Shown: piece after piece, positions 24,154-25,922 of the stretch | Layout of the letters: each line of letters starts with the position of its first letter | Numbering within the stretch: the first letter of the stretch is position 1 | Source: Actinomadura formosensis NBRC 14204 | GTDB taxonomy: Bacteria > Actinomycetota > Actinomycetes > Streptosporangiales > Streptosporangiaceae | Assembly: GCF_001552155.1 (NCBI RefSeq) | Contig: NZ_BCQQ01000020.1 | Location: 1 to 64,000, forward strand | Direction: 5' to 3' | DNA length: 64,000 nucleotides | Translations under genes and position numbers: made by a program | Notes under the pieces: generated by a model | Seen by the model: only the letters and a program-made list of their open reading frames with translations | Database searches by the model: none | Told to the model about the DNA's origin: nothing

Positions 24154-24966
24154 TCACGGCTTGTAGCCGGGGTATCCGTAGCCGACGATGTCGTCGACCG
24201 GACGCTCCTTGATCCTGACGGCGTTGCCGGTGTTGCCCTCGACGGCTTCGATCGTGCCGTCGTCGACCTTCTTGACCACCATGCCGACGTGCCGGATGTC
24301 CTCGACGTCCTTGCTGCCGTCCCAGGCGTAGAAGACGATCGCGCCCGGCCTCGGGTCGGTGCCCCAGCGGCCGTGCTCCTGGAACCAGCGGGCGTGGGCG
24401 ACGGTCCAGGCGTCGCTGCCGATCTGGTCGGTGAAGCCGATCTGCTCGCCGATCCAGGAGATGAACATGTCGCACCACTGTGCGTCGCCGTACTCGCTGA
24501 TGGAGCCGCCGTCGCGGGCGACGGTCTCCCCGGCGCGCGCGGTGCCCATGTACCACTTCTGGAACTTGGTCTCGCCGCCGCTGTCCTCTTCCACACCGAC
24601 CTGGGACTTGGCGAGCTTGATGGCCTCGTCGGCGGTGGGCCGGGCATCCCCGGTCTTCTGGGGGGCGGCCTTCGGGCGGTCCTGGGTTTCCTGTGCGGGG
24701 GACGTCCGGGGCTCGGCCTTGGACGTGCTCTTGGCCGGACCCTTGCCCGCCTTCTTGGCATCCGCCTTCTTGACGGGGGCGGCACCGGCCGCCGCGGCCG
24801 TCGCCGGGGCGGAGCCGAACGGCAGGACGGACGCCTGCGCGGTGGCCGCCGCGGTACCGAGGACGGCGGCGCCGACGATTACGCCGCCGGTCGTCCGCCA
24901 TGTGAGGGACAGGGGGCCCGGCTTGCGGTGCCTGCCCGGGACCTTCTTGCAATGTTCGCGTGGCAA
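24154..24966 (-). CDS. Secreted CHAP-domain peptidoglycan hydrolase
   Basis: A 270-residue secreted protein. A long signal sequence (basic, then GGVIVGAAVLGTAAATAQAS) is followed by an Ala/Lys-rich linker (~60-105) and a CHAP domain with the catalytic Cys in DAQWCDMFISW, His in RHVGMVV and a Glu/Asn in VEGNTG. It probably cuts stem peptides or cross-bridges. TTG at 24966 is the likely start: GAGGAG (24975-24980) lies eight bases upstream. Two ydaO-type riboswitches precede it, so expression should fall or rise with cyclic di-AMP. Confidence 0.87.
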   Translation of the reverse strand: MPREHCKKVPGRHRKPGPLSLTWRTTGGVIVGAAVLGTAAATAQASVLPFGSAPATAAAAGAAPVKKADAKKAGKGPAKSTSKAEPRTSPAQETQDRPKAAPQKTGDARPTADEAIKLAKSQVGVEEDSGGETKFQKWYMGTARAGETVARDGGSISEYGDAQWCDMFISWIGEQIGFTDQIGSDAWTVAHARWFQEHGRWGTDPRPGAIVFYAWDGSKDVEDIRHVGMVVKKVDDGTIEAVEGNTGNAVRIKERPVDDIVGYGYPGYKP

Positions 24967-24990
24967 GGGGGGATCTCCTCGACTTCCATG

Positions 24991-25138
24991 CCGCCTACCG
25001 GGTTAGCTGACGGGTTCGGGCCTGGAAGGCGCCCTACGGCCCGCGGGCAGGCCGATTCACCCCGAAAGAGAAAGGACACGATGGGTCCCCGGCTCCGCGT
25101 CCGGTGCGCGTGCGCACGGCGGTCCGCGGACTCGGCGG
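24991..25138 (-). ncRNA. ydaO/yuaA-type cyclic di-AMP riboswitch, proximal copy
   Basis: Read on the minus strand the segment has the conserved blocks of the ydaO class in order: GAGCCGGGGACCCA, CGGGGTGAATCGGC, GTAGGG, CCCGAACCCGTCAGCTAA, CCCGGTAGGCGG. The closing helix P1 can form from CCGCC (25134-25138) and GGCGG (24991-24995). It ends ten bases before the GAGGAG ribosome site of the CHAP gene, so it may control translation or transcription of that gene. In actinobacteria this class binds c-di-AMP and precedes cell-wall hydrolase genes. Confidence 0.93.
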
Positions 25139-25220
25139 TGGCGTGCCCGGGGGACGGGCACACCGGTTTCGGATGGGGGCTCGCACGGGCGGAGGCGCCC
25201 GCGGAGTGCAGGGGGGGTCC

Positions 25221-25251
25221 GGGCGTGGCCGCACGACGGGCGGCCACGCCC
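25221..25251. terminator. Strong hairpin between the two riboswitches
   Basis: GGGCGTGGCCGC (25221-25232) pairs perfectly with GCGGCCACGCCC (25240-25251) around a 7-base loop. On the minus strand it begins ~37 bases after the distal riboswitch, in the position of an expression platform; there is no U-run, as is usual for actinobacterial terminators. Confidence 0.7.
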
Positions 25252-25288
25252 AGGTAACGCTGCGGAACTCACTCCTTCGCTCTTCCAG

Positions 25289-25460
25289 ACGCCTACCGGG
25301 TTAGCTGACGGGTTCGGGCGTGGAAGTGGCCCTACGGCGGCTCTCACCGGGGGTGGGAGAGACACGCCGATTCACCCCGGGTGCCGGAATGCCCGTCCGG
25401 GAGGTCTCCCGGACTCCGGCGATGTGGGTCCCCGGTTCCGCGCTTCGGCGGATTCGGCGC
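25289..25460 (-). ncRNA. ydaO/yuaA-type cyclic di-AMP riboswitch, distal copy
   Basis: A second complete element of the same class: GAACCGGGGACCCA, CCGGGGTGAATCGGC, GTAGGGCC, CCCGAACCCGTCAGCTAA and CCCGGTAGGCG on the minus strand, with P1 from CGCC (25456-25459) and GGCG (25290-25293). A 14-bp-scale stem-loop (GTCCGGGAGACCTCCCGGAC) fills the variable arm. Downstream is GAAGGAG (25272-25278), at the same place as the proximal copy's ribosome site but with no start codon at a workable distance. Confidence 0.93.
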
Positions 25461-25893
25461 TGCCGCTGCGATCCTGGGGGCGAGATGGGGCCCGGCGCGG
25501 GACCTGTCTCCCGCGTGCGAACGAGCGGCGCCTGATGTTGTGTGCGGACGCCGGCCCGGTTCCGGGGGCGTCCGGGGTTGCCTGACCCGGGGGAACCGCC
25601 GTGGCTGCGCGCTCAGCGCCATGCACGCCGTGAGCGTGCGCACGGTGGCCCGGGTCGGCCGTGCGGTCCGCGTGGGACCGCTGTGCGGCACCGTCCGGTG
25701 CCGCGGGGGCGACGCGTGGGTCGTGCCGCCCGGGTGGCGGCACATGGCTCGTGCCGCCGTCACGCGGCGGACGAACGCGCCGCGCGGGGTCGGGGCGCCT
25801 GGCGGGCGCCGCGGGGCTACGGCGCCTGGAGGGCGCCGTGAGTGGTGACAACGTACCAAAGCCCCAACAGAAGGCAAACCCCTACAAAATTAA
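25461..25893. other. Non-coding stretch upstream of the riboswitches
   Basis: About 430 bases between the distal riboswitch and the NlpC/P60 terminator. Several open frames cross it on both strands but none has a ribosome site, family resemblance or normal amino-acid composition (all are Arg/Pro/Gly rich). It should hold the promoter for the riboswitch transcript; I could not identify a convincing -35/-10 pair. Confidence 0.5.
25794..25837. repeat. Two short GGCGCC hairpin repeats
   Basis: GGCGCCTGGCGGGCGCC (25794-25810) and GGCGCCTGGAGGGCGCC (25821-25837) differ by one base and are 27 bases apart; each can fold into a small hairpin. No function is evident. Confidence 0.6.
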
Positions 25894-25922
25894 CAACGGA
25901 CCAGGTCAAGCCTGGTCCGTTG
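25894..25922 (-). terminator. Terminator of the NlpC/P60 gene
   Basis: CAACGGACCAGG (25894-25905) and CCTGGTCCGTTG (25911-25922) form a perfect 12-bp stem with a 5-base loop. On the minus strand it is followed by TTAATTTTGT, a genuine U-rich tail, 48 bases after the gene's stop codon. Confidence 0.9.

Follow-up and report, generated by a model that had tools for sequence, protein, structure and literature searches.

Tandem c-di-AMP riboswitches ahead of a CHAP gene

The window analysed here is the whole 64,000-nucleotide stretch from Actinomadura formosensis NBRC 14204. A scan of the full 64 kb with cmscan gave two Rfam matches at the gathering score, both to the ydaO/yuaA family RF00379 (gathering score 38 bits), both on the minus strand and each spanning positions 1–134 of the 134-position covariance model (Table 1). 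Thus both of the complete tandem aptamers described in an earlier note on this DNA, and not just one of them, score above the threshold. In covariance-model alignments the consensus blocks of the family are seen in each copy, including the conserved signatures GGGGTGAATC and GCCCGAACCCGTCAGCTAACCC that the note had pointed out. Each element can also close a P1 helix when read by eye: in the distal copy four base pairs form between CGCC (25459–25456) and GGCG (25293–25290), and in the proximal copy CCGCC (25138–25134) pairs with GGCGG (24995–24991). The Rfam match to the proximal element starts at 25116, which is 22 nt downstream of the 5′ strand of P1, probably because of an extra insert beside P2 in this copy. 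CUUCC before the end of the core and GGAA after P1, which may form a pseudoknot of the ydaO class, are present in all 37 distal copies that have been orphaned from their gene (see below). On the basis of family membership, P1 and the core blocks, the pair is predicted to sense c-di-AMP. A diadenylate cyclase domain (PF02457) is found among the proteins of the genome.

Table 1. Features of the tandem riboswitch locus, in the order in which they occur on the minus strand
Feature	Position	Strand	Basis or remark
Hairpin with T-rich tail, at which the upstream NlpC/P60 gene probably terminates	25894..25922	-	Direct reading
Promoter-like site	25850..25878	-	TTTGCC 25878-25873, 17 nt, TACGTT 25855-25850; putative function
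Conserved leader upstream of the distal aptamer	25470..25843	-	About 370 nt; several hairpins by eye
Distal c-di-AMP riboswitch aptamer	25275..25469	-	RF00379, 69.2 bits, E 5.7e-14; probably the former leader of a lost nlpC/P60 gene
GAAGGAG, remnant of the lost gene's ribosome-binding site	25272..25278	-	In intact loci the nlpC frame begins after it
GC-rich hairpin T1, probable terminator of the lost nlpC gene	25221..25251	-	Fold z-score -4.0 for 25205-25275
Hairpin adjoining the proximal aptamer on its 5′ side	25140..25164	-	By eye; within a conserved block
Proximal c-di-AMP riboswitch aptamer	24991..25138 (Rfam match 24976-25116)	-	RF00379, 70.8 bits, E 2.1e-14
GAGGAG ribosome-binding site of the CHAP gene	24975..24980	-	Direct reading of the sequence
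CHAP-domain cell-wall hydrolase gene	24154..24966	-	TTG start, 270 aa; PF05257, 39 bits against a cut-off of 26

The single hydrolase gene that the earlier note placed downstream of the pair is the CHAP gene. Matches to its protein, paralogues included, occur in all 65 genomes of the genus, and nine of its 11 named relatives are from Actinomadura. The proximal copy has a GGAAG at 24987–24983 that could pair with its CUUCC loop and that ends 2 nt before the GAGGAG of the CHAP gene, and this placement fits translational control by the proximal riboswitch. The hairpin at 25140–25164 is immediately 5′ of the proximal P1; by eye, hairpins in loci with an intact nlpC gene are similar in place. At the other end of the locus, the T-tailed hairpin separates the leader from an upstream NlpC/P60 gene (27074–25971, minus strand; PF00877, 92.5 bits).

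The two Rfam matches are 158 nt apart, within the limit of ≤300 nt used to define doublets in PMC9481103. The nlpC frame found in relatives is absent from the gap; mechanically listed open reading frames do cross it, and in the same lists this GC-rich DNA has long frames on either strand. The genome has five RF00379 matches in total, and the pair in the window is the sole pair. The other three loci (L103, L104 and L105) all lie ahead of likely cell-wall hydrolase genes, one preceding a CHAP relative and two, as judged by eye, NlpC/P60-like proteins.

A complete nlpC gene lies between the riboswitches in relatives

For comparison across the genus we used the CHAP gene as an anchor. One locus was counted in 52 of the 65 Actinomadura genomes (L047–L096, L099 and L100; the other 13 genomes had no counted locus), and all 52 were scanned with RF00379. 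Two loci at contig ends (L058 and L067) were dropped, leaving 50 that were informative. In ten of these (L073, L078–L082, L087 and L090–L092) a complete NlpC/P60 gene is located between the distal riboswitch and CHAP; PF00877 confirmed this assignment for one copy at 80.1 bits. The proximal riboswitch is kept in nine of the ten, L073 being without it. The remaining 40 loci lack nlpC. Both riboswitches are present in 34 of them, the distal copy alone in three (L057, L062 and L083), a single hybrid riboswitch in two (L054 and L066) and the proximal copy alone in one (L099). The pair is therefore retained among relatives, a comparison that the earlier note had proposed, and it is the usual state of nlpC-less loci in the genus rather than the exceptional one that the note had supposed; moreover 77 c-di-AMP doublets have been published (PMC9481103).

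A genus-wide search recovered nlpC in ten of the 65 genomes, namely the query's own and nine with copies at 71–78% identity. The remaining matches are paralogues at ≤60% identity, and the clear gap between these and the true copies indicates that nlpC is missing from the other 55 genomes, many of which are draft assemblies, and has not merely moved. Outside Actinomadura, the order riboswitch–nlpC–riboswitch–CHAP occurs at five loci (L122–L125 and L127), which belong to three further genera of the family, so the gene-bearing state is probably the older one. Insertion of nlpC into a pre-existing pair was considered and is disfavoured by these five outgroup loci and by the eroded 5′ coding remnants described below.

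On a tree of the CHAP protein, the fewest changes between the intact and lost states is six. This is a quick tree with SH-aLRT support only, in which 17 forks are open, long branches meet and the five outgroup rows do not fall on one side of a branch; we therefore read the minimum of six as several losses and not as a firm count. A likely separate loss is found at L085 (genome G025), which lacks nlpC and lies beside the intact L091 with a support of 84. Overall, loss of the nlpC gene at this locus is well supported by the comparison of sequences. The earlier note had suggested that a whole leader, perhaps with a lost gene, was duplicated. The lost gene in this proposal stands, since relatives keep nlpC; the local duplication of a leader is not supported.

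Local duplication of a leader is disfavoured

Both copies are of the ydaO class, and each has a similar tail, GGAAG followed by a ribosome-binding site, ahead of hydrolase genes, as would be expected if one leader had been duplicated locally to make the pair. We compared the copies in 18 short-gap, nlpC-less tandem loci, the same set that is used for the conservation analysis below. The distal and proximal aptamers of one genome share 0.54 identity, against 0.86 among distal copies and 0.83 among proximal copies across species. Together with the intact gene that lies between the copies in relatives and outgroups, these values make local duplication a very improbable origin. Since the two copies served different genes in the ancestor, we conclude that gene loss, and not duplication of a leader, made the tandem. 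An older duplication, of a riboswitch together with its hydrolase gene, is possible.

The separate identities of the two copies can also be traced in the hybrid riboswitches, which are located directly ahead of CHAP (L054:1281–1482 and L066:1257–1454). Their 5′ parts share 0.81 (L054) and 0.84 (L066) identity with distal copies against 0.40 and 0.42 with proximal copies, and their 3′ parts share 0.98 and 0.94 with proximal copies against 0.80 and 0.81 with distal copies. The hybrids thus look like products of deletion by recombination between the two copies.

The orphaned distal aptamer is conserved

Given that its gene and start codon have gone, the distal copy might be a fossil that has yet to decay, with the proximal riboswitch alone at work. 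The stretch from the distal ribosome-binding site to the T1 hairpin would agree with this, as it is no better conserved (identity 0.783) than fourfold-degenerate sites of CHAP (0.774), and at L099 the distal copy has been lost. The aptamer itself behaves differently. It scores above the gathering threshold in 37 of the 40 nlpC-less loci (54.9–98.1 bits). In the 18 short-gap loci, its mean pairwise identity is 0.886, compared with 0.882 for the proximal aptamer, 0.774 at the CHAP fourfold sites, whose GC content of 0.96 raises the neutral level, and 0.745 in the spacer after T1. The distal copy is therefore conserved like the proximal copy, and more than the CHAP fourfold sites, in the same species in which the nlpC frame has gone. 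In addition, the minimum of six state changes suggests that it was kept after several separate losses. We consider it quite improbable, on these grounds, that the distal copy is a fossil.

Conservation hence supports the view that the distal riboswitch has remained under selection despite the loss of the gene that it once led. Among 36 of the 37 distal copies (L093 was left out) 77 alignment columns are invariant, and two-sided changes occur at four of 30 predicted pairs, this small covariation term reflecting a core that hardly varies. Neither copy is indispensable in nlpC-less loci, as the distal one is lost in L099 and the proximal one in L057, L062 and L083.

Remnants of the lost gene

In intact loci the nlpC frame opens at the ribosome-binding site of the distal leader, which identifies the spare GAAGGAG of the window as the ribosome site of the lost gene. 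A hexamer of this kind (AAGGAG, GAGGAG or, in three loci, ACGGAG) is present in 37 of 37 orphaned distal leaders. A CTG persists at start-codon distance in 16 of the 37 and a TTG in L083, and recognisable 5′ coding remnants follow the start-codon position in many. The window's own clade is more eroded: it reads GAAGGAGTGAGTTCCGCAGCG, without a start codon 4–12 nt downstream. Accordingly, the earlier note's observation that the distal GAAGGAG lacks a start codon is borne out, there being no ATG, GTG, TTG or CTG 4–12 nt beyond it. A short frame starting from the distal ribosome site was also considered and rejected; the GTG of the window directly overlaps this site (GGAGTGAG) and is too close to be served by it.

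A second, probable remnant is the GC-rich hairpin T1, which lies between the aptamers and, in the window's clade, some 36 nt beyond the P1 region. In at least eight of the ten intact loci the nlpC stop codon is followed by GC-rich hairpins. We surveyed T1 in 37 nlpC-less loci, a list without the two hybrids and L099, and 30 of these entered a pairing test; L061 was not entered, L085 and L100 have no unbroken stem of ≥10, and in L086, L088, L093 and L096 other hairpins were chosen. T1 is retained as well: two-sided changes were observed at four of the 12 pairs of the stem, and 359 of 360 stem cells pair, a figure that is partly due to construction because unbroken stems were chosen. In the window T1 has no T-run, so that read-through by RNA polymerase appears plausible from the sequence.

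We also considered whether T1 could be gated by the ligand, since the 5′ arm of T1, GGGCGTGG, could pair with the complementary segment CCACGCCC of the aptamer. This candidate antiterminator was set aside because the two segments do not covary. In four of the 18 short-gap loci (L056, L060, L063 and L064) the aptamer has CCTCGCCC while T1 keeps GGGCGTGG, and in L068, L070–L072 and L075 T1 has GGGCGCGG while the aptamer is unchanged at CCACGCCC. No ligand-gated antiterminator for T1 was found in the nlpC-less loci listed.

A single promoter-like site precedes the distal riboswitch

The promoter-like site of the window closely follows the T-tailed hairpin at the end of the upstream NlpC/P60 gene, and the leader RNA is presumed to start near 25843, just downstream of TACGTT. 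Of 49 loci, 44 have the pattern TTTGCC-N16..18-TANNNT ahead of the distal or hybrid aptamer, where 0.05 loci would be expected by chance from mononucleotide shuffles; the loci are related, and so are not independent. In 43 of these the pattern lies 306–434 nt from the aptamer. In L100 the distance is 155 nt, and this match may be due to chance. The exact pattern is absent upstream in the remaining five loci (L066, L069, L076, L078 and L079). The intervening leader (25470–25843) is conserved, with a mean pairwise identity of 0.67–0.95 per 60-nt block in the 18 loci, and has no Rfam match at the gathering score or at E values up to 1. A further RNA family in this region was considered and set aside. 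In a search of 200 genomes of the family, DNA matches occurred in 76 at E≤0.001, many of them short, and those beyond the orthologous stretches are taken as GC-rich noise.

In the stretch that leads to CHAP from the distal riboswitch, or from the nlpC stop codon where nlpC is intact, neither TTTGCC-N16..18-TANNNT nor TTG[AC]C-N16..19-TANNNT was found in any of 47 loci. Six of 37 nlpC-less and one of ten intact loci have a bare TANNNT there, although at about 80% GC a missing TANNNT is weak evidence. The search covered these two consensus patterns; in L090 the nlpC stop was seemingly missed, giving a 951-nt stretch, and some stretches enter the CHAP frame. Since the only promoter-like site found with these patterns is upstream of the distal copy, we infer that the distal copy most likely acts on CHAP.

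It could be argued instead that the distal riboswitch and T1 form a separate short c-di-AMP-binding RNA, acting in trans or as a sponge, with CHAP transcribed from its own promoter and controlled by the proximal copy alone. T1 closely follows the distal ribosome site in the window's clade and its stem shows two-sided changes; the distal aptamer is also kept in the three loci in which the proximal one is lost (L057, L062 and L083). Furthermore, T1 is stable, and if termination there were complete, the distal promoter would not reach CHAP, which would then need a promoter that we have not seen. Against this stand the 47 loci with neither promoter pattern between the copies and the lack of a T-run after T1 in the window. 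The hybrids bear on the same question. Because the whole gap has been deleted in them, the region upstream of the distal part is left to supply the CHAP promoter, and their CHAP leader should start there; the promoter pattern is present in L054, but L066 does not have it in exact form. We therefore regard a separate RNA as unlikely, and favour a single leader that carries both riboswitches to CHAP.

A model for the origin and function of the tandem

The comparison of loci indicates that in the ancestor a promoter was followed by a ydaO riboswitch and the nlpC/P60 gene, and then by a hairpin, a further ydaO riboswitch and CHAP, so that two cell-wall hydrolase genes had one c-di-AMP riboswitch apiece. 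In this Actinomadura lineage nlpC was lost, leaving behind its riboswitch, ribosome site and probable terminator hairpin, and CHAP is now preceded by two riboswitches in a shared leader, about 880 nt long if the RNA starts where we presume. At high c-di-AMP both aptamers would fold. By analogy with rpfA of Streptomyces, the distal aptamer may lower the number of transcripts that pass the T1 region, and by analogy with nlpC of Corynebacterium glutamicum, the proximal aptamer may block the ribosome site of CHAP. The two would then act as OFF switches in series that shut off the hydrolase when c-di-AMP is high. As the distal copy has no start codon, any effect that it has on CHAP would be exerted through the RNA, by ending near T1, by stability or by folding of the leader. 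Regulation of CHAP by both switches is thus suggested by the arrangement of the locus, and a sharper response or a two-step gate, both of which the earlier note had raised, are possible outcomes.

Taken as a whole, we think it likely that loss of nlpC made the tandem, that the orphaned riboswitch has since been under selection and that both switches probably act on CHAP. A broader proposal, which we put forward tentatively and with somewhat less than even confidence, is that tandem riboswitches can arise without duplication, through repeated loss of a gene that lies between two riboswitch-controlled genes of the same operon or is one of them, the orphan being co-opted as a second OFF stage with the terminator of the dead gene as its output. 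If this is true, Actinomadura would hold every stage of the process, from the ancestor through eroding intermediates and the tandem to collapse into one hybrid. The locus in any case makes a route to tandem regulation testable, in which a riboswitch is orphaned and may then act on the next gene.

Relation to known riboswitches

The tandem arrangement of c-di-AMP riboswitches is of a kind already known. The 77 reported doublets, most of them with a terminator-like hairpin between the aptamers, resemble the window in having two c-di-AMP aptamers ahead of one gene (PMC9481103). In that review, which is mainly functional, they are discussed as devices that are pseudo-cooperative or may be cooperative, whereas here we propose an origin by gene loss. 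Pairs more than 300 nt apart were excluded from it, and loci that bear nlpC would fall outside its scope. To such a catalogue the present locus adds a natural series of intact ancestor, several seemingly separate losses, conserved orphans and hybrids; some catalogued doublets may stem from gene loss rather than having been two-stage sensors from the start.

The c-di-AMP riboswitches reported in actinobacteria are OFF switches before cell-wall hydrolases (PMC10117811, PMC9960051). The ydaO-type riboswitch of rpfA in Streptomyces is an OFF switch that ends transcripts early without a canonical terminator, and no tandem is mentioned for it in the available parts of these papers (PMC10117811, PMC9960051). 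For S. lividans six ydaO leaders are listed, one per gene (PMC8079986). RSnlpC of C. glutamicum (cg2402), an OFF switch that most likely acts at translation, is like the ancestor of the distal copy in lying ahead of an NlpC/P60 gene; unlike the distal copy it still has its gene, and the word "tandem" is absent from the text (PMC9960051). For another ligand, a study of tandem and singleton glycine riboswitches related the conservation of aptamers to regulatory context (PMC6944388). In the literature as available to us, partly in excerpt, we found no description of a tandem riboswitch that originated by loss of an intervening gene, which older ydaO papers may mention, and no paper that joins Actinomadura with a riboswitch and c-di-AMP.

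Start codons of the intact nlpC genes

In all ten intact Actinomadura copies of nlpC a CTG lies 5–6 nt after AAGGAG and probably serves as the start codon. The outgroup copies appear similar, with CTG in four of the five and TTG in the other. Alternative starts exist in some loci: an in-frame ATG abuts the ribosome-binding site in L079, and an in-frame ATG occurs 8–14 codons downstream in each of L073, L080 and L087. It is possible that the intact nlpC gene has a conserved non-standard start codon under its riboswitch.
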